A stretch of DNA of 64,000 bases from Conyzicola nivalis. Its GTDB lineage: Bacteria > Actinomycetota > Actinomycetes > Actinomycetales > Microbacteriaceae. The notes under the pieces are model-generated. The model did not search any database. It saw only the letters and a program-made list of their open reading frames with translations, and was not told where the DNA came from. The position numbers and the translations under genes are program-made. The stretch spans positions 2,186,882-2,250,881 of the forward strand of contig NZ_BMGB01000001.1 in assembly GCF_014639655.1 (NCBI RefSeq), in the 5' to 3' direction. How positions within the stretch are numbered: position 1 is the first letter of the stretch; each line of letters begins with the position of its first letter. Positions 15,366 to 25,159 of the stretch are shown here, piece after piece.

Positions 15366-15659
15366 ATGAAGTGTCCGAACGATTCAGCCACGCTCGTCAT
15401 GAGCGAACGCAGCGGCGTCGAAATCGACTACTGCCCCGAATGCCGGGGCGTGTGGCTCGACCGCGGTGAGCTCGACAAGATCATCGACCGCGCGGAGAGC
15501 GAGTTCACCAAGTCCGCCCCGGTCGCACCGACCGTGGCCCCGCGCGCGCCGCAGTACGGCGACCGCGACCGCGATCGCTACAACGACCGCGAGCGCGGCT
15601 ACGACAACGGCTACCGTCCGAAGAAGAAAGAGAACTGGCTTGGCGAGCTCTTCGGCTAG
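15366..15659 (+). CDS. zinc-ribbon (TFIIB-type) protein
   Basis: A 97-residue protein with an N-terminal zf-TFIIB ribbon: Cys at MKCPND and the pair in YCPECRGVWLDRGELDKII. The C-terminal half is an Arg/Asp/Tyr-rich low-complexity tail (YGDRDRDRYNDRERGYDNGY) ending in WLGELFG. Small proteins of this type are common and uncharacterised. The ATG at 15366 follows a strong TTGGAGG. TAAAAT at 15331-15336 is a plausible -10. Confidence 0.87.
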   Translation: MKCPNDSATLVMSERSGVEIDYCPECRGVWLDRGELDKIIDRAESEFTKSAPVAPTVAPRAPQYGDRDRDRYNDRERGYDNGYRPKKKENWLGELFG

Positions 15660-16405
15660 GCAGCGCTAGTCGCCACCCACTCCTCGTACGTGGTCTGGAA
15701 GACCGTCGCGTCGGCGCCGGGCACGAGCGTTCGCTCGTCGAGCACGGCGCCGAAGTAGGGCGCGCCGGGGTCGACGACGACCTCGCGGGTGTCCCCGCGA
15801 AGAGCGAGACCCGTGCGGACCAGTTCGTCGAGGCCGAACTGCGTCGGTCCGGCGATCTCGAGCGTGCCGTTCAGCGGTGCGCCGACGGCGGTGCGGGCGA
15901 CCGCGGTCGCCACGTCGTCCGCGGCGATCGGCTGGATGCGGGCGTGCGAGAGACGAACGATGTCGCCGTCGGTCGCTTCCTCGGCGATACTCATCACGAA
16001 CTCGAAGAACTGGGTGGCGTGAACGATCGAGTACGGCAGGCCGGACTGCTTGATCAGGTTCTCCTGCGCGACCTTGGCGCGGAAGTAGGCGCTCTCGGGC
16101 AGCCGGTCGGTGCCGACGACCGACAGCGCGACGTGGTGAGTCACGCCGGCGGCCTTCTCGGCGGCGAGCAGATTGGTCGTCGAGGTGGTGAAGAAGTCCA
16201 TAACTGCCCGCTCCTCGAACGACGGCGAGTTGGAGACGTCGATGACGACCTGGGCACCGGTGAGCACGTCGGCGAGACCCTCGCCGGTGAGGGTGTTCAC
16301 GCCGGAGTTCGGCGAAGCCGAAACCGCTGCGTGGCCGTGCTCCGTGAGCTTGGCGATGGTTTTCGAACCGACAAGTCCTGTGCCGCCGATAACTACGATC
16401 TTCAT
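15656..16405 (-). CDS. NmrA-like NAD(P)-binding oxidoreductase, ECF41-associated copy 1
   Basis: A 249-residue atypical SDR with the dinucleotide motif GGTGLVG at 7-13, VIDVSNS, ALSVVGTDRL and YFRAKVAQENLI containing the Tyr/Lys-like pair. It lacks the extended C-terminal domain of sugar epimerases and most resembles NmrA/'SDR family' proteins with unknown substrates. It is clearly paralogous to the protein at 17775-18557 (shared IVHATQFFEF and QPIAADDVA-type segments). Its own promoter at 16458-16484 matches that of the neighbouring ECF41 operon, so it is a likely target of that sigma factor. Its stop overlaps the convergent zinc-ribbon stop by 4 bp. Confidence 0.9.
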   Translation of the reverse strand: MKIVVIGGTGLVGSKTIAKLTEHGHAAVSASPNSGVNTLTGEGLADVLTGAQVVIDVSNSPSFEERAVMDFFTTSTTNLLAAEKAAGVTHHVALSVVGTDRLPESAYFRAKVAQENLIKQSGLPYSIVHATQFFEFVMSIAEEATDGDIVRLSHARIQPIAADDVATAVARTAVGAPLNGTLEIAGPTQFGLDELVRTGLALRGDTREVVVDPGAPYFGAVLDERTLVPGADATVFQTTYEEWVATSAA

Positions 16406-16457
16406 GATTGGCCTTCCGCTGATGTACCGAGCGGGGCCGCCCGGGTTCACCAGCTAA

Positions 16458-16484
16458 GACAGGGCGCAGGCGCCATCTGTGACG
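16458..16484 (-). promoter_or_regulatory. ECF41-type promoter of NmrA-like copy 1
   Basis: On the minus strand CGTCACA (16484-16478) and TGTC (16461-16458) are separated by exactly 16 bp, followed by TTAGCTGGTGAAC. The same arrangement precedes the gene starting at 18557. From memory, the published ECF41 promoter is TGTCACA-N16-CGTC. Confidence 0.8.
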
Positions 16485-16496
16485 CTTCGCCGCCGA

Positions 16497-16880
16497 TCAG
16501 TCGGGCTGGTCGTTCCAGTGCCGCAGCTTGTCGCGGCCCAGGACTACCCAGATGGTGGTAACAAGGTCGCGGTCGACTCGCAGGCTGACGACGCCGGCGA
16601 CCTCGCCTCCGCGGCGCAGCACGAGCGCCGACCGCCCGTTCACCTCGCGCTCGGTGGTCTCGGCCGCGTCCGGGTCGAGCAGGTGGCAGAGCGCGCGGGC
16701 GACGTCGGCCGCTCCACGCACTGTGCGGGGTTCGGATGTCGCGGCGCCCCCTCCGTCGTCGGTGAGCATCGCGACATCCGCATGGAGCAGGTGTGCGACC
16801 AACGCCGGCTCCCCCGTCTCGACGGCCAACCGCAACTCGCGCACCGTCATGTCGTGCCGGTCTCCCGACCCACCCGTCAC
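16497..16880 (-). CDS. stand-alone NTF2-like protein resembling the ECF41 C-terminal domain
   Basis: A 127-residue SnoaL/NTF2-like protein. It contains LTDDGGG and GRDKLRHW, positions that correspond to the DGGG and NPxKL motifs of the ECF41 regulatory extension. It looks like that extension encoded separately. The GTG start overlaps the sigma-factor stop (GTGA, 16877-16880), so the two are translationally coupled. It may interact with the sigma factor or core polymerase, or bind the same ligand; this is inference. Confidence 0.8.
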   Translation of the reverse strand: MTGGSGDRHDMTVRELRLAVETGEPALVAHLLHADVAMLTDDGGGAATSEPRTVRGAADVARALCHLLDPDAAETTEREVNGRSALVLRRGGEVAGVVSLRVDRDLVTTIWVVLGRDKLRHWNDQPD

Positions 16881-17770
16881 GAAGCCGCCTCGGCCATCGG
16901 CCGCAGCTTGGCGGGGTTCATCAGCCAGAGCAACTGCTCGATCCCCGATTCGGAGGTCGTCGCGGCGACGATGGTGAACGGCACACCGTCGCGCGAGAGC
17001 TCTACCGAAGGCCGGCCGTTGGCCTCGACCCAGCGCAGGTCGACGCCCGTCCAGAAGTGCGACGAGAACGCGGCCACGAACCTGGCGACGCGCTCGCGGC
17101 CGATGACCGGGATGCGCGCGGCGAGCTTTACCCCGCCGCCGTCGGAATAGCTGACCACGTCGGCCGCGAACAGCCTCTCGAGCACTGCCACGTCGCCGGA
17201 CTGCGCCGCGGTGAGGAACGCGCTGAGCAGCCGCCGGTGTTCGGGTCTCGGAGCCGGCCGGCGTCGCTCGGCCGCGAGATGCTGGCGCGCGCGGCTCACC
17301 AGTTTGCGGGCGCCCGGCACGGTGGATTGCACGATGTCGGCGATGAGCTCGTACGGGTAGTCGAACGCCTCGCGCAGAACGTACGACGCGCGCTCCGCCG
17401 GAGTCAGCTTCTCGAGCAGGAGGAGCACGGCATACTCGAGGGCCTCCCCGCGTTCGGCTCCGAGCTCGGGATCGGCGGTCGTGTCGATCGGGTCGGGCAG
17501 CCACGGGCCGATATACGTCTCGTGACGGGAACGGGCGGACTGGGCGAGGTTCATCGCGAGCCGCGTGGTGATCGTTGCGAGGAATGCCGGAGGATTCTCG
17601 ACGACGGTTCTGTCGGTGGACTGCCAACGCAGCCAGGTGTCCTGCACGATATCCTCGGCCTCCGAGACGCTGCCGAGCATGCGGTAGGCGATGCCGAAGA
17701 GGCGCGGACGAACCGTCGTGAAGGTCGACATCGCCAGCTCGAGGCCACCGCCCGCGTCGGTATCGTGCAC
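16877..17770 (-). CDS. ECF41-group (SigJ-like) RNA polymerase sigma factor
   Basis: A 297-residue sigma factor. Region 2 lies at about 20-85 (LFGIAYRMLGSVSEAEDIVQ), region 4 at about 115-170 (LTPAERASYVLREAF, then a helix-turn-helix), and a fused NTF2-like extension at about 180-297. The three ECF41 hallmarks are present: WLPDP at 90-94 in the linker, DGGG at 210-213, and NPAKL near the C-terminus. In this group the extension replaces an anti-sigma factor. It starts at GTG 17770, 4 bp after the upstream NmrA-like gene, behind GGAGGG. Oxidoreductase neighbours are the known context of ECF41. Confidence 0.93.
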   Translation of the reverse strand: MHDTDAGGGLELAMSTFTTVRPRLFGIAYRMLGSVSEAEDIVQDTWLRWQSTDRTVVENPPAFLATITTRLAMNLAQSARSRHETYIGPWLPDPIDTTADPELGAERGEALEYAVLLLLEKLTPAERASYVLREAFDYPYELIADIVQSTVPGARKLVSRARQHLAAERRRPAPRPEHRRLLSAFLTAAQSGDVAVLERLFAADVVSYSDGGGVKLAARIPVIGRERVARFVAAFSSHFWTGVDLRWVEANGRPSVELSRDGVPFTIVAATTSESGIEQLLWLMNPAKLRPMAEAAS

Positions 17771-17774
17771 GCGC

Positions 17775-18557
17775 TCATCCCTCCGTCGTGATCAGATGCT
17801 GCCGCATCGCGGGGCCCTTCAACCAGTCTTCGAACCGGGTGGGCGTGATGACGACACCGGCACCCGGAAGCAGTTCGTCTTCGCCGAGGTTATTGCCGAA
17901 GTACCGCGCGAGCGGGTCGGCGACGACACTTCGGCTATCGCGCTGCGCCTCGAGTCTGCGCGCCACGAGGTCGTCGAGGGTGAACACGTCAGGACCGGCG
18001 AACTCGACGATGCCGTTCTCGGGAGCCCCGATCGCCACGTTCGCGACGGCCGAGGCCACGTCGTCGGCCGCCATCGGCTGCACCATCGCCCTCGACAGGC
18101 GCACATGCGCGCCGTGGGTGGCTTCGTCGGCGATGCTGCCCAGGAACTCGAAGAACTGGGTGGCGTGCACGATCGTGAACGGGGTGTTCGCCGCCTTGAT
18201 CAACTGCTCCTGTTCGAACTTTGCGCGGAAGTATCCGCGTTCCGATGCCGCGAGCCTGTCGGTGCCCACGACGGACAGCGCGACGTGGTGGCCGACACCG
18301 GCGGCCGCGCCGTACGTGAGCAGGTTCAGCGTCGAGGTTTCGAAGAACTCACGTGCGCCCTCCTCGTCGGTGTACGACGAGTTCGACACGTCGACGACGA
18401 CGTTCGCGCCGGACAGCGCGTCTTCGAGCCCCTCACCGGTGAACGAGTTGACTCCCGTGGCGCGAGCGGCCGCGACGACCGGGTGGCCGTGCCCCGCGAT
18501 TATCCGGACGACCCGGGCTCCGATGAGTCCGGTGCCCCCGACAACGACGACCTTCAT
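17775..18557 (-). CDS. NmrA-like NAD(P)-binding oxidoreductase, ECF41-associated copy 2
   Basis: A 260-residue paralogue of the protein at 15656-16405. It has GGTGLIG at 7-13, VVVDVSNS, HHVALSVVGTDRL and IVHATQFFEF. It is the first gene of a three-gene operon (oxidoreductase, sigma factor, NTF2-like protein) with gaps of 4 bp and -4 bp. The ATG is preceded by GGGAGGGG. The substrate is unknown; ECF41 sigma factors typically control carboxymuconolactone decarboxylases, oxidoreductases or epimerases, and this is the oxidoreductase version. Confidence 0.9.
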   Translation of the reverse strand: MKVVVVGGTGLIGARVVRIIAGHGHPVVAAARATGVNSFTGEGLEDALSGANVVVDVSNSSYTDEEGAREFFETSTLNLLTYGAAAGVGHHVALSVVGTDRLAASERGYFRAKFEQEQLIKAANTPFTIVHATQFFEFLGSIADEATHGAHVRLSRAMVQPMAADDVASAVANVAIGAPENGIVEFAGPDVFTLDDLVARRLEAQRDSRSVVADPLARYFGNNLGEDELLPGAGVVITPTRFEDWLKGPAMRQHLITTEG

Positions 18558-18597
18558 GGTGAACCCCTCCCTGCACGCCGTCGGCCGGCATGCCAGC

Positions 18598-18637
18598 GGT
18601 CACCAGCTATGACCGAGCAGGCGGGAGAAGTGTGACG
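18598..18637 (-). promoter_or_regulatory. ECF41-type promoter of the oxidoreductase-sigma-NTF2 operon
   Basis: On the minus strand CGTCACA (18637-18631) is followed after exactly 16 bp by GGTC (18614-18611) and then ATAGCTGGTGACC (18610-18598). Both core elements and the downstream TAGCTGGTGA are shared with the promoter at 16458-16484, pointing to autoregulation of the sigma factor. Confidence 0.82.
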
Positions 18638-18642
18638 GGCAA

Positions 18643-18861
18643 TTACCGGGAGGGCGGAGGCGTGGCATCCCCGGCGCGCGGCTCGCGTCCGCCGAGCAGC
18701 TTCCAGACGGCGACGCCGGCTCCGAGCAGCACGGCGAAGTCGTCGGTGAGTCCCAGCGGGCCGGTCAGCAGCTCGGGGATGACGTCGATCGGGGACATGC
18801 CGTAGACGAGTGCGGCGGCGGCGACCAGTACGGCGGAGATTACCTTGCGATTGCGTCCCAT
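18643..18861 (-). CDS. DUF1232 (YkvA-like) small membrane protein
   Basis: A 72-residue protein with the DUF1232 core: AALVYGMSPIDVIPELL followed by GLTDDFAVLLGAGVAVW. The hydrophobic segments suggest membrane attachment. Function is unknown. It lies 44 bp downstream of the MerR-type gene on the same strand. Confidence 0.85.
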   Translation of the reverse strand: MGRNRKVISAVLVAAAALVYGMSPIDVIPELLTGPLGLTDDFAVLLGAGVAVWKLLGGREPRAGDATPPPSR

Positions 18862-18905: not shown

Positions 18906-19526
18906 TCACCCGAGCGGCCGCGGCCCGAAGCGCTGATACGAGGCGCTCTGCTGGGCGAGGCGTCGAAGCGCGAGCAGCAGCGGCTCGACGAGAACGGTGC
19001 CGAGCACGACGTAGCGCACGGCCGACTCGGCGGAGTCCGTCGGCACGCCCGCGATCTCGGCGTCGGCCACCTCGTGCATGGCGGCCGCGTACGTCTCCAG
19101 CACCCCCTCGGGCAGGTCGAAACCCGCGGACCGCACCCCCTCGAGTGCTTCCGCCACCGCCGCCTTGCCGACGTCGTCGCATCCGTCTGTTCCCCATCCC
19201 CACCGCTCGAGCATCGCGTCTACCGCGCTCGTGTCCGTGGCCTGCGCGACAGGTTTCGCCAAGGCGTGGTGTGCGACGCCGAGCAGATCGTGGCCGGACT
19301 CGGGCGGCGAATCGACCCCGTCGAGCAGCTCGCGCACGGCGGAGATGCTCAGACCCGCGCCGCCGACGAGGGCGCGGATGAGGCGCAGCCGGCGGACGTG
19401 CGTCTCGTCATAGCGGGCCTGGGTGGGCGAGGTGAGCCGGCCGTCGTGCAGCAGACCCTCGCGCAGGTAGTACTTGATCGTGGCGACGGGCACCTCGGTC
19501 GCGGCCGCGAGTTGGGATATTCGCAC
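18906..19526 (-). CDS. MerR-family transcriptional regulator
   Basis: A 206-residue regulator with an N-terminal MerR winged helix (RISQLAAATEVPVATIKYYL, LREGLLHDG, then DETHVRRLRLIRAL) and a larger, poorly conserved C-terminal helical domain without metal-binding cysteines. The GTG at 19526 was chosen because AAGGAG lies 6 nt upstream; an ATG further upstream would run through that site. It is divergent from a DUF4188 gene, the usual partner of this MerR type. Confidence 0.9.
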   Translation of the reverse strand: MRISQLAAATEVPVATIKYYLREGLLHDGRLTSPTQARYDETHVRRLRLIRALVGGAGLSISAVRELLDGVDSPPESGHDLLGVAHHALAKPVAQATDTSAVDAMLERWGWGTDGCDDVGKAAVAEALEGVRSAGFDLPEGVLETYAAAMHEVADAEIAGVPTDSAESAVRYVVLGTVLVEPLLLALRRLAQQSASYQRFGPRPLG

Positions 19527-19536
19527 TAGATACTCC

Positions 19537-19565
19537 TTGACATAGATAGCGCCACTCTCCATTAT
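19537..19565 (+). promoter_or_regulatory. promoter of the DUF4188 gene
   Basis: TTGACA (19537-19542), a 17-bp spacer and CATTAT (19560-19565). Shifted reading gives TTATTA after 19 bp, the elongated spacer of MerR-activated promoters. It lies in the intergenic region shared with the divergent MerR gene. Confidence 0.65.
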
Positions 19566-19599
19566 TAGCGTGTACGGCTATCCAATCGGAGGTTCCACC

Positions 19600-20094
19600 A
19601 TGTCACAGGTTCAGACCGGGCGCATGACGCACCGCTACGACGGCGAGCTGGTGGTCTTCCTCATCGGGATGCGATTCAACCGGCCCTGGCGGGTCAACAA
19701 GTGGCTGCCCGCCTTCCTCGCGATGCCGCGCATGCTGGCCGAGCTATCGAAAGACCCGGACTCGGGTCTTATGGGCTTCCGCCTCAGCTTCAGTGGCGAC
19801 GGGCCCCTCATCGTGCAGTACTGGAACTCGCGCGAGAAGCTCTACGACTACGCGAGCGCGCCCTCCGCCGAGCACCGCCCGGCCTGGACGGCCTTCAACC
19901 AGCGCGCCCGCAAGGCGGCGGGCGCGGTCGGCATCTGGCACGAGACCTACCAGGTCGACCGCGCCGAAACGATGTACGTCGGCATGCCCGCGATCGGCTT
20001 GGCCCGCGCGACGCAGGCCGTGCCGGTGGGCAAGCGGGCGGACCGGGCCGCACAGCGGATGGCCGAGGGGCGCACGCGGCAGAGCGACGGATAG
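19600..20094 (+). CDS. DUF4188 domain protein
   Basis: A 164-residue protein with the DUF4188 pattern (MTHRYDGELVVFLIGMRFNR, KWLPAFLAMPRMLAEL, IVQYWNSREKLYDYA, then IWHETYQV). These resemble heme-degrading/monooxygenase-like ferredoxin folds, but no activity is established. It is typically paired with a MerR regulator, as here. The ATG follows CGGAGG. Its last codons contain an 18-bp stretch repeated at the end of the methyltransferase at 21504-22118. Confidence 0.88.
   Translation: MSQVQTGRMTHRYDGELVVFLIGMRFNRPWRVNKWLPAFLAMPRMLAELSKDPDSGLMGFRLSFSGDGPLIVQYWNSREKLYDYASAPSAEHRPAWTAFNQRARKAAGAVGIWHETYQVDRAETMYVGMPAIGLARATQAVPVGKRADRAAQRMAEGRTRQSDG
20075..20092 (+). repeat. 18-bp direct repeat, copy 1
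   Basis: CGCGGCAGAGCGACGGAT at the 3' end of the DUF4188 gene. An identical copy in the same frame lies at 22099-22116, so both proteins end in RQSDG. Confidence 0.85.
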
Positions 20095-24980: not shown

Positions 24981-25159
24981 AACCGGCCCTCGACATGTTC
25001 ACGCTGTATACATATCATGGATGCCACGGTCTAACCTTCGTTGCCAGAGCTGTCGATCGCCGCGACTCCCGTTCGACCTCAGTGTGACGACGTGAGCGCG
25101 CCGATCGGAGAGGATCGCATGACCGACACAGACAGAACGCCGCCGCAAGCCAGGCCCAC

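Follow-up and report, generated by a model that had tools for sequence, protein, structure and literature searches.

What is the small gene that follows the sigma factor gene in an ECF41 (extracytoplasmic function, group 41) locus of the actinobacterium Conyzicola nivalis, and what might its product do there? The locus lies within a stretch of 64,000 nucleotides (positions 2,186,882 to 2,250,881 of contig NZ_BMGB01000001.1; hereafter the window) and holds, on the minus strand, an ECF41 sigma factor gene, two oxidoreductase genes and the small gene. By sequence comparison, the latter proves to encode, on its own, a copy of the regulatory domain found at the C-terminus of the sigma factor itself. 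We consider it probable that this copy is a former second ECF41-like sigma factor that has shed its core and would act in trans on its ECF41 partner. ECF41 proteins are widespread, with about 400 members in 10 phyla, and the first investigators did not know their inducing condition (Wecke et al. 2012, PMC3426412). In that work the C-terminal extension is both required and inhibitory, no obvious anti-sigma gene is seen, and a further protein is thought unlikely to be involved, since assays in B. subtilis, itself devoid of ECF41, worked without one. In the window a candidate partner gene adjoins the sigma gene, although ECF41 is described as lacking a separate anti-sigma gene.

The sigma factor and the gene behind it

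The sigma factor (16877..17770, minus strand) belongs to ECF41, as a preliminary description of this DNA, made from the letters alone, had proposed. It contains Sigma70_r2 and Sigma70_r4_2 domains (PF04542, 3.4e-12; PF08281, 4.2e-08) and a long SnoaL-like C-terminal extension, evident from a TIGR02957 match over residues 16-292 (323.3 bits, barely over the cut-off of 323.25) and from a fold like that of Mycobacterium tuberculosis SigJ (ECF41; 5xe7), its closest solved structure. The NCBIfam SigJ model NF007214 (264.3, cut-off 271) and PF12680 (22.2, cut-off 27) stay below threshold. The linker YIGPWLPDP (residues 86-94) carries the WLPxP motif, DGGG stands at 210-213 and NPxKL appears as NPAKL at 285-289; W90, L91, P92, P94, D210, G213, P286 and K288 are invariant in a 29-row sigma alignment (A2). 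ECF41 sigma genes adjoin a gene for a carboxymuconolactone decarboxylase, oxidoreductase or epimerase (COE; PMC3426412), and here genes for NmrA/NAD(P)-binding short-chain dehydrogenases/reductases (SDRs), by Pfam, flank the sigma gene on both sides. The locus thus resembles those of Ecf41Bli and Ecf41Rsp (PMC3426412) in the sigma2-sigma4 architecture with a fused SnoaL-like extension, in the WLPxP linker and NPxKL motif, in its oxidoreductase/epimerase neighbour and in a promoter ahead of the COE-sigma operon. It differs from them in three respects: the -10 is (G/T)GTC, not CGTC, and is followed by a loosely conserved element; there are two local targets; and a gene for the regulatory domain by itself adjoins the sigma gene. 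Two ECF41-like paralogues in the same genome (L127, L128) have neither a free-standing domain nor a promoter site in the stretches read.

The small gene (16497..16850, minus strand) adjoins the sigma gene on the same strand. An in-frame GTG at 16880, perhaps its true start, overlaps the sigma stop codon, which makes translational coupling of the two genes plausible; the guanine-cytosine (GC) content at its third codon positions, 0.88, is like that of its neighbours. The preliminary description had called the product an NTF2 protein. A model of the protein (pLDDT 88.9) is indeed NTF2-like; what the label missed is the relationship to the sigma factor's own C-terminal domain. Pfam yields no match to the protein at E 0.01. 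It matches the NCBIfam SigJ and SigX4 models over their C-terminal part only (residues 177-290 of 293; E 2e-13 for SigJ) and shares 28 of 104 aligned residues with the domain of its own sigma factor. The best solved chain for a profile of 28 such proteins (A1) is again SigJ, 5xe7 residues 180-297 (5e-11). Among 50 listed structural matches to the model SigJ has the highest TM-score, 0.66; by E-value it is outranked by de novo NTF2 proteins and epoxide hydrolases. Taken together, the protein is homologous to the SigJ/ECF41 C-terminal domain rather than to other SnoaL proteins. D32, N71 and W101 are invariant in the 28 members of the family, 22 of which retain PxKL and 15 the full NPxKL. In SigJ itself the domain forms part of the sigma factor polypeptide. 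An NTF2-like regulatory domain that exists both fused and free-standing is familiar from the orange carotenoid protein and its stand-alone C-terminal homologues. These differ in their role in photoprotection and in their unrelated effector domain, and orange carotenoid proteins appear here only as weak fold matches.

Free-standing and degenerate copies in relatives

Relatives of the locus were gathered as 1.0 Mb of sequence around ECF41-type genes (loci L009-L112), picked by similarity of the sigma factor and not by promoter. We scored a domain as linked when it matched the profile at more than 60 bits without a sigma-core match, and added the degenerate sigma genes of L047 and L094. By this measure a free-standing domain lies within 3.5 kb of the ECF41 gene in 22 of 58 close loci, within 1.1 kb in 17 of them, and in 0 of 14 distant ones. 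One more linked locus, L069, was added by eye beyond these 22. Relics in L049, L051 and L052 went uncounted owing to their greater distance from the primary sigma gene; in L049 and L051 the relic has a second ECF41 gene as its neighbour. Some of the loci stop short at a contig end, and the copy in L102 is partial.

A wider search found profile matches at 1e-8 in 41 of 120 family genomes, many of them the sigma domains themselves. From these we read 10 further regions, picked by short open frames or tandem matches and so not covering all matches. The domains of L135, L137 (the same stretch as L042), L138 and L139 are directly beside an ECF41 gene, and that of L140 is about 1.5 kb from one. Within the 6.5-7 kb read, those of L134 (3298-3815) and L136 (3079-3586) are unaccompanied by an ECF41 gene and have a TGTC-type site 147 and 137 bases upstream, respectively. 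In L141 (3072-3393), a stretch likewise devoid of an ECF41 gene, an ECF41-type TGTC site extends across the beginning of a weak domain match. The domain genes of L134, L136 and L141 could possibly be regulon members in trans. L142 (3122-3742) presents a frame with sigma4 and the SnoaL domain, no sigma2, and a CGTC-type site further upstream; this is possibly an ordinary sigma gene, with sigma2 encoded in a different frame. An exact ECF41 site lies at most 200 bp upstream of 7 of 42 free-standing or relic genes (L043, L061, L072, L109, L132, L134 and L136, with L061 and L109 close kin). In all, the free-standing domain recurs near ECF41 in several actinobacterial families. Separately, 32 records of a plasmid collection gave matches; of 15 listed, 10 matches fall in annotated sigma-factor genes and 5 are unannotated.

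Some relatives retain more than the domain. L047 (Cryobacterium sp. N22), L094 (Lacisediminihabitans profunda) and L131 (same family) each carry a full-length degenerate sigma-like gene directly downstream of the ECF41 gene. We compared these at positions at least 90% conserved in 73 ECF41 sigma factors, with 19 other ECF41 proteins as the comparison set: in sigma2 the three proteins keep 39 of 87 conserved cells, against 409 of 551 in the others. They have lost D40, Q43 and W46, which we take to lie in region 2.2 and to contact core polymerase. All three keep Y86, G88, W90, L91, P92 and P94 of the linker and D210, G213, N251, G252, P286 and K288 of the domain. A further group combines the domain with a remnant of sigma2 in the N-terminal part, as judged by a profile of 73 intact sigma factors (L069, 9e-11; L051, 1.5e-9; L052, 1e-8; L077, 1e-6; L049, 2e-6); none of 185 shuffled pieces reached E 1. 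The sigma4 profile finds L142 (5e-23) and a weak remnant in L053 (2.8e-4), two shuffled pieces reaching 0.6 and 1.0. No sigma remnant was detected in the other pieces of the 37 searched, the window copy included, which consist of the domain only.

The domains of these proteins tend to group with one another. A quick tree built from 137 domains contains a branch (Shimodaira-Hasegawa-like approximate likelihood ratio test, SH-aLRT, 92) that sets 35 of the 36 free-standing, relic and degenerate-sigma domains to one side. In a more careful tree of 112 rows, made after 25 rows had been dropped, 30 of 31 group (98/94), with L053 apart. When all 31 are held in one group, the best tree found scores 3.3 log units above the free tree; this grouping is not rejected (p 0.56), in a test made after the tree was seen. 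Given these trees, the free-standing domains, L053 aside, are not fresh copies of the domain of the neighbouring sigma factor. They are also under constraint, though less than the sigma factor: across 12 comparisons the ratio of nonsynonymous to synonymous differences (pN/pS) never reaches 1, with 0.26-0.66 for six free-standing pairs, 0.36 for a relic pair and 0.40-0.43 for degenerate sigmas, compared with 0.24-0.26 for two sigma pairs.

A proposed action in trans and its alternatives

How might such a domain work? We suppose that a second ECF41-like sigma factor lost its sigma2/sigma4 core and kept its C-terminal domain. The free-standing protein would most likely bind the ECF41 sigma factor in trans, at the WLPDP linker for instance, where it would replace or join the C-terminal domain already fused to that factor; once bound it would restrain or tune the sigma factor, creating co-regulated feedback. 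We infer both the physical binding and its sign, with inhibition somewhat more likely than activation. A domain that mostly keeps its docking motif, often lies directly after the sigma gene and sometimes has an ECF41 site of its own fits the part of a feedback partner, and contact between NPDKL and the linker is reported in PMC7730460. A parallel is SigG1-RsfG of Streptomyces tsukubaensis (ECF56), where a SnoaL-extended ECF is likewise accompanied by a small gene directly downstream, co-transcribed in ECF56. The available text of that study reports RsfG without a conserved Pfam domain and does not describe it as a SnoaL-domain protein; SigG1 moreover lacks the NPDKL motif, and binding of RsfG is demonstrated (PMC7730460), whereas binding by the window protein is a prediction.

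Several observations weigh against a core-less sigma factor that acts in trans. The window copy reads GRDKL in place of an intact NPxKL, and the NTF2 fold is also frequent among small enzymes. Decay in the degenerate sigma proteins hits sigma2 hardest and not sigma2 alone: conserved cells kept, relative to the other ECF41 proteins, are 19/30 against 150/190 in the linker, 46/81 against 384/608 in sigma4 and 36/69 against 298/437 in the domain, and P89 of the linker is lost too. The domain tree rests on 116 columns, leaves L053 outside the group, and 0 of 200 bootstrap trees hold all 31 domains together. No such gene is scored in 36 of the 58 close loci, so it is not essential to ECF41 function, and L133 lacks both an exact site and, over the stretch read, a neighbouring ECF41 gene.

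The small protein could instead be an ordinary SnoaL/NTF2-like enzyme or ligand binder, a metabolic output of the regulon and no regulator of the sigma factor. Its structural matches include ketosteroid isomerase and limonene epoxide hydrolase, and the E-values of some surpass that of SigJ; several other targets in the relatives are redox enzymes, and the invariant D32 could be a pocket residue. We nonetheless regard this as unlikely, given that the closest relatives by sequence profile are sigma-factor domains and that a series with remnant sigma core, the linker motif being retained in three, is hard to explain for an enzyme. An effect on the sigma factor might also run the other way, with the protein acting as an activator in trans that displaces the inhibitory C-terminal domain or completes an active conformation. 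Removing part of the extension increases activity in B. licheniformis, yet a short portion beside sigma4 is absolutely required (PMC3426412), and a competing domain could therefore act in either direction. ECF sigma genes are, however, generally co-transcribed with an anti-sigma gene (PMC3426412), and RsfG antagonises the related SigG1 (PMC7730460), so activation seems to us quite unlikely. Functionless decay of the gene would agree with the faster evolution of the free-standing pairs relative to the sigma pairs and with the loss of NP from the motif in the window copy. It is improbable against the intact coding composition, pN/pS values below 1 throughout, the three invariant residues and the recurrence near ECF41 in several families.

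We therefore retain, as the probable reading, a core-less ECF41-like protein that acts on its partner. Rather more tentative, and a little short of an even proposition, is a wider scheme in which conserved sigma2 residues were lost first, then sigma4 or sigma2, then both, with the linker-docking domain kept throughout, so as to yield a new class of trans-acting sigma regulators in Actinobacteria. C-terminal extensions have been proposed to stem perhaps from fusion, possibly with anti-sigma-like proteins (PMC8103513). The graded series suggests traffic in the opposite direction, and stepwise core decay, if true, would reverse that proposal and illustrate how a regulator can descend from proteins of the very type that it may control. 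With a regulatory domain that occurs naturally on its own and intermediates that have a broken core, the family is also a ready means of testing action in trans and its direction. No earlier report of a free-standing ECF41 domain was found by title or abstract opening, or in the available text of PMC3426412, PMC7730460, PMC8999054, PMC8103513 and PMC6180224; the main classification and domain papers lie outside this scope, and earlier notice is possible.

Promoters, targets and surroundings

The two promoters of the locus lie on the minus strand exactly where the preliminary description had placed them, each followed by (A/T)TAGCTGGTGA. P1, CGTCACA-N16-GGTC (18637-18611; CGTCACACTTCTCCCGCCTGCTCGGTC; pattern search, family-wide motif and extended match), stands ahead of SDR1 (17775..18557, minus strand), an atypical SDR and the first target, the sigma gene and the free-standing domain. 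P2, CGTCACA-N16-TGTC (16484-16458; CGTCACAGATGGCGCCTGCGCCCTGTC; pattern search and extended match), stands ahead of SDR2 (15656..16405, minus strand), which likely starts at the ATG at 16405, with an in-frame GTG also upstream at 16450. Immediately 3' of the -10 lie the minus-strand elements ATAGCTGGTGA (18600..18610) for P1 and TTAGCTGGTGA (16447..16457) for P2. Shuffled windows contain the bare pattern 0.29 times on average, and at least two copies in 3 of 100 shuffles. A genome-wide search for CGTCACA-N16-NGTC, which had been suggested along with the sites, finds 8 places in 3.34 Mb, 6 of them outside this locus and none of those 6 with the downstream element. The bare pattern is thus too loose to serve as a regulon finder; its TGTCACA form occurs at 0 places in the genome.

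The extended pattern YGTCACNN16KGTCWTANCT, composed after the two sites and the family logo were known, has exactly 2 matches in 3.34 Mb, both at this locus. Because of this, a local regulon of the two transcription units is well supported at the sequence level, and SDR2 as its second target, as originally suggested, likewise. One of the two sites could in principle be a chance match, leaving a single transcription unit in the regulon, as the 8 places of the bare pattern and the shuffles with two or more sites might hint. We judge this most improbable in view of the extended motif and of the SDR genes of many relatives, which have the same site about 50 bp before their start. The placement of P1 ahead of SDR1-sigma suits autoregulation, and we describe the locus as a putative autoregulated circuit in which P1 drives the presumably co-transcribed SDR1, sigma factor and free-standing domain, and P2 drives SDR2. 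A third CGTCACA site at 25064-25089, with a 15-base spacer and AGTC, has no open reading frame found downstream and probably arose by chance.

The promoter type is shared with relatives. [TC]GTCACA-N16-NGTC occurs at 144 sites in the 1.0 Mb, a count into which L009 brings the window's own two, against 2 sites for the reversed and 0 for the permuted pattern. Duplicate removal and longer fetches gave 148 sites (128 close-clade, 20 distant); fetch-duplicated L009, L010, L011, L012, L014, L015 and L016 and the own-genome strays L121-L126 were dropped before logo and context tables were made. The first base of the -10 is G or T in 126 of the 128 close-clade sites and C in 14 of the 20 distant ones. 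Beyond the -10 the 128 sites favour T at +2 (0.51), A at +3 (0.51), T at +6 (0.50), G at +7 (0.69), G at +10 (0.57) and A at +11 (0.53), figures inflated by near-copies among loci. This conservation holds both in 36 sites scored as preceding an SDR gene and in the other 92, and falls to background from +16 to +36. The element is loose, with T+2, A+3, T+6 and G+7 together in 18 of 128 close-clade and 0 of 20 distant sites. From these sequences, the promoter type of the clade reads as YGTCACA-N16-(G/T)GTC followed by a looser TAgcTGgtGA element, and P1 and P2 both match it. The exact form of the ECF41 promoter given in the preliminary description, TGTCACA-N16-CGTC, is absent from the window; the departure at the -10 is a clade variant of the ECF41 promoter, neither an oddity of this locus nor a defining trait of the protein family. 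The clade-specific -10 and downstream element make a sharper motif for target finding. A leaderless start does not account for the conserved GTGA: a start codon stands at the offset in 26 of 49 anchored sites and is in frame in 8 of the 26, about one third. Nor is a hairpin in the 5' untranslated region a general feature (mean z -0.43 over 41 leaders, 5 below -2, mononucleotide shuffles); the SDR1 leader itself folds well, z -2.9.

ECF41 sigma factors were said by their first investigators generally to have one target (PMC3426412), and two targets had been called less usual here. For SDR pairs this stands, as two SDRs lie within 4.5 kb in 6 of 58 loci. For sites it does not: within 4.5 kb, 27 of 58 close loci have at least two, 23 have one and 8 have none, and L049 and L051 (Streptomyces) reach six such sites within that distance of their main sigma gene, one before an SDR gene. 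Pfam assigns 43 hand-chosen downstream proteins to Pyr_redox_2 (7), DAO (7), CMD (5), Abhydrolase_3 (4), cytochrome b (3) and others. The multi-site loci suggest a wider local regulon in this clade.

The two SDRs had further been read as a duplication of both target and promoter. They share 57% identity, both promoters begin CGTCACA, and 10 of 11 bases after the -10 are alike. As a recent local event this is unsupported, because each SDR has nearer relatives in other genomes than its partner: SDR1 is 64% identical to an L050 protein and SDR2 69% to an L131 protein. In a quick tree of 51 rows, which left out L060, L062, L063, L066, L095 and weak and short rows, SDR1 falls in a starred seven-row clade (100*) with proteins of L041, L045, L047, L050, L129 and L131, and SDR2 falls outside it. 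The rows closest to SDR2 by path come from L131, L094 and L047, within a wider group that is only weakly resolved. Since L047 and L131 also contain a protein of the SDR1 clade, each has close relatives of both window SDRs; in L041, L045, L129 and L050 the second SDR is of another subgroup. The spacers of P1 and P2 agree at 6 of 16 bases and the upstream 60 bases at 19 of 60 (ungapped), and the element after the -10 is common to other targets. We therefore give a recent duplication very little credence; an ancient one is possible.

The nearest named relatives at the locus are Microbacteriaceae. Directly upstream of P1, on the same strand, lies a gene for a short DUF1232 protein (18643-18861). 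Beyond it, at 18906-20094, a gene for a MerR-family regulator (minus strand) stands divergent from a Monooxy_af470-like gene (plus strand), likely a separate regulator-target pair.

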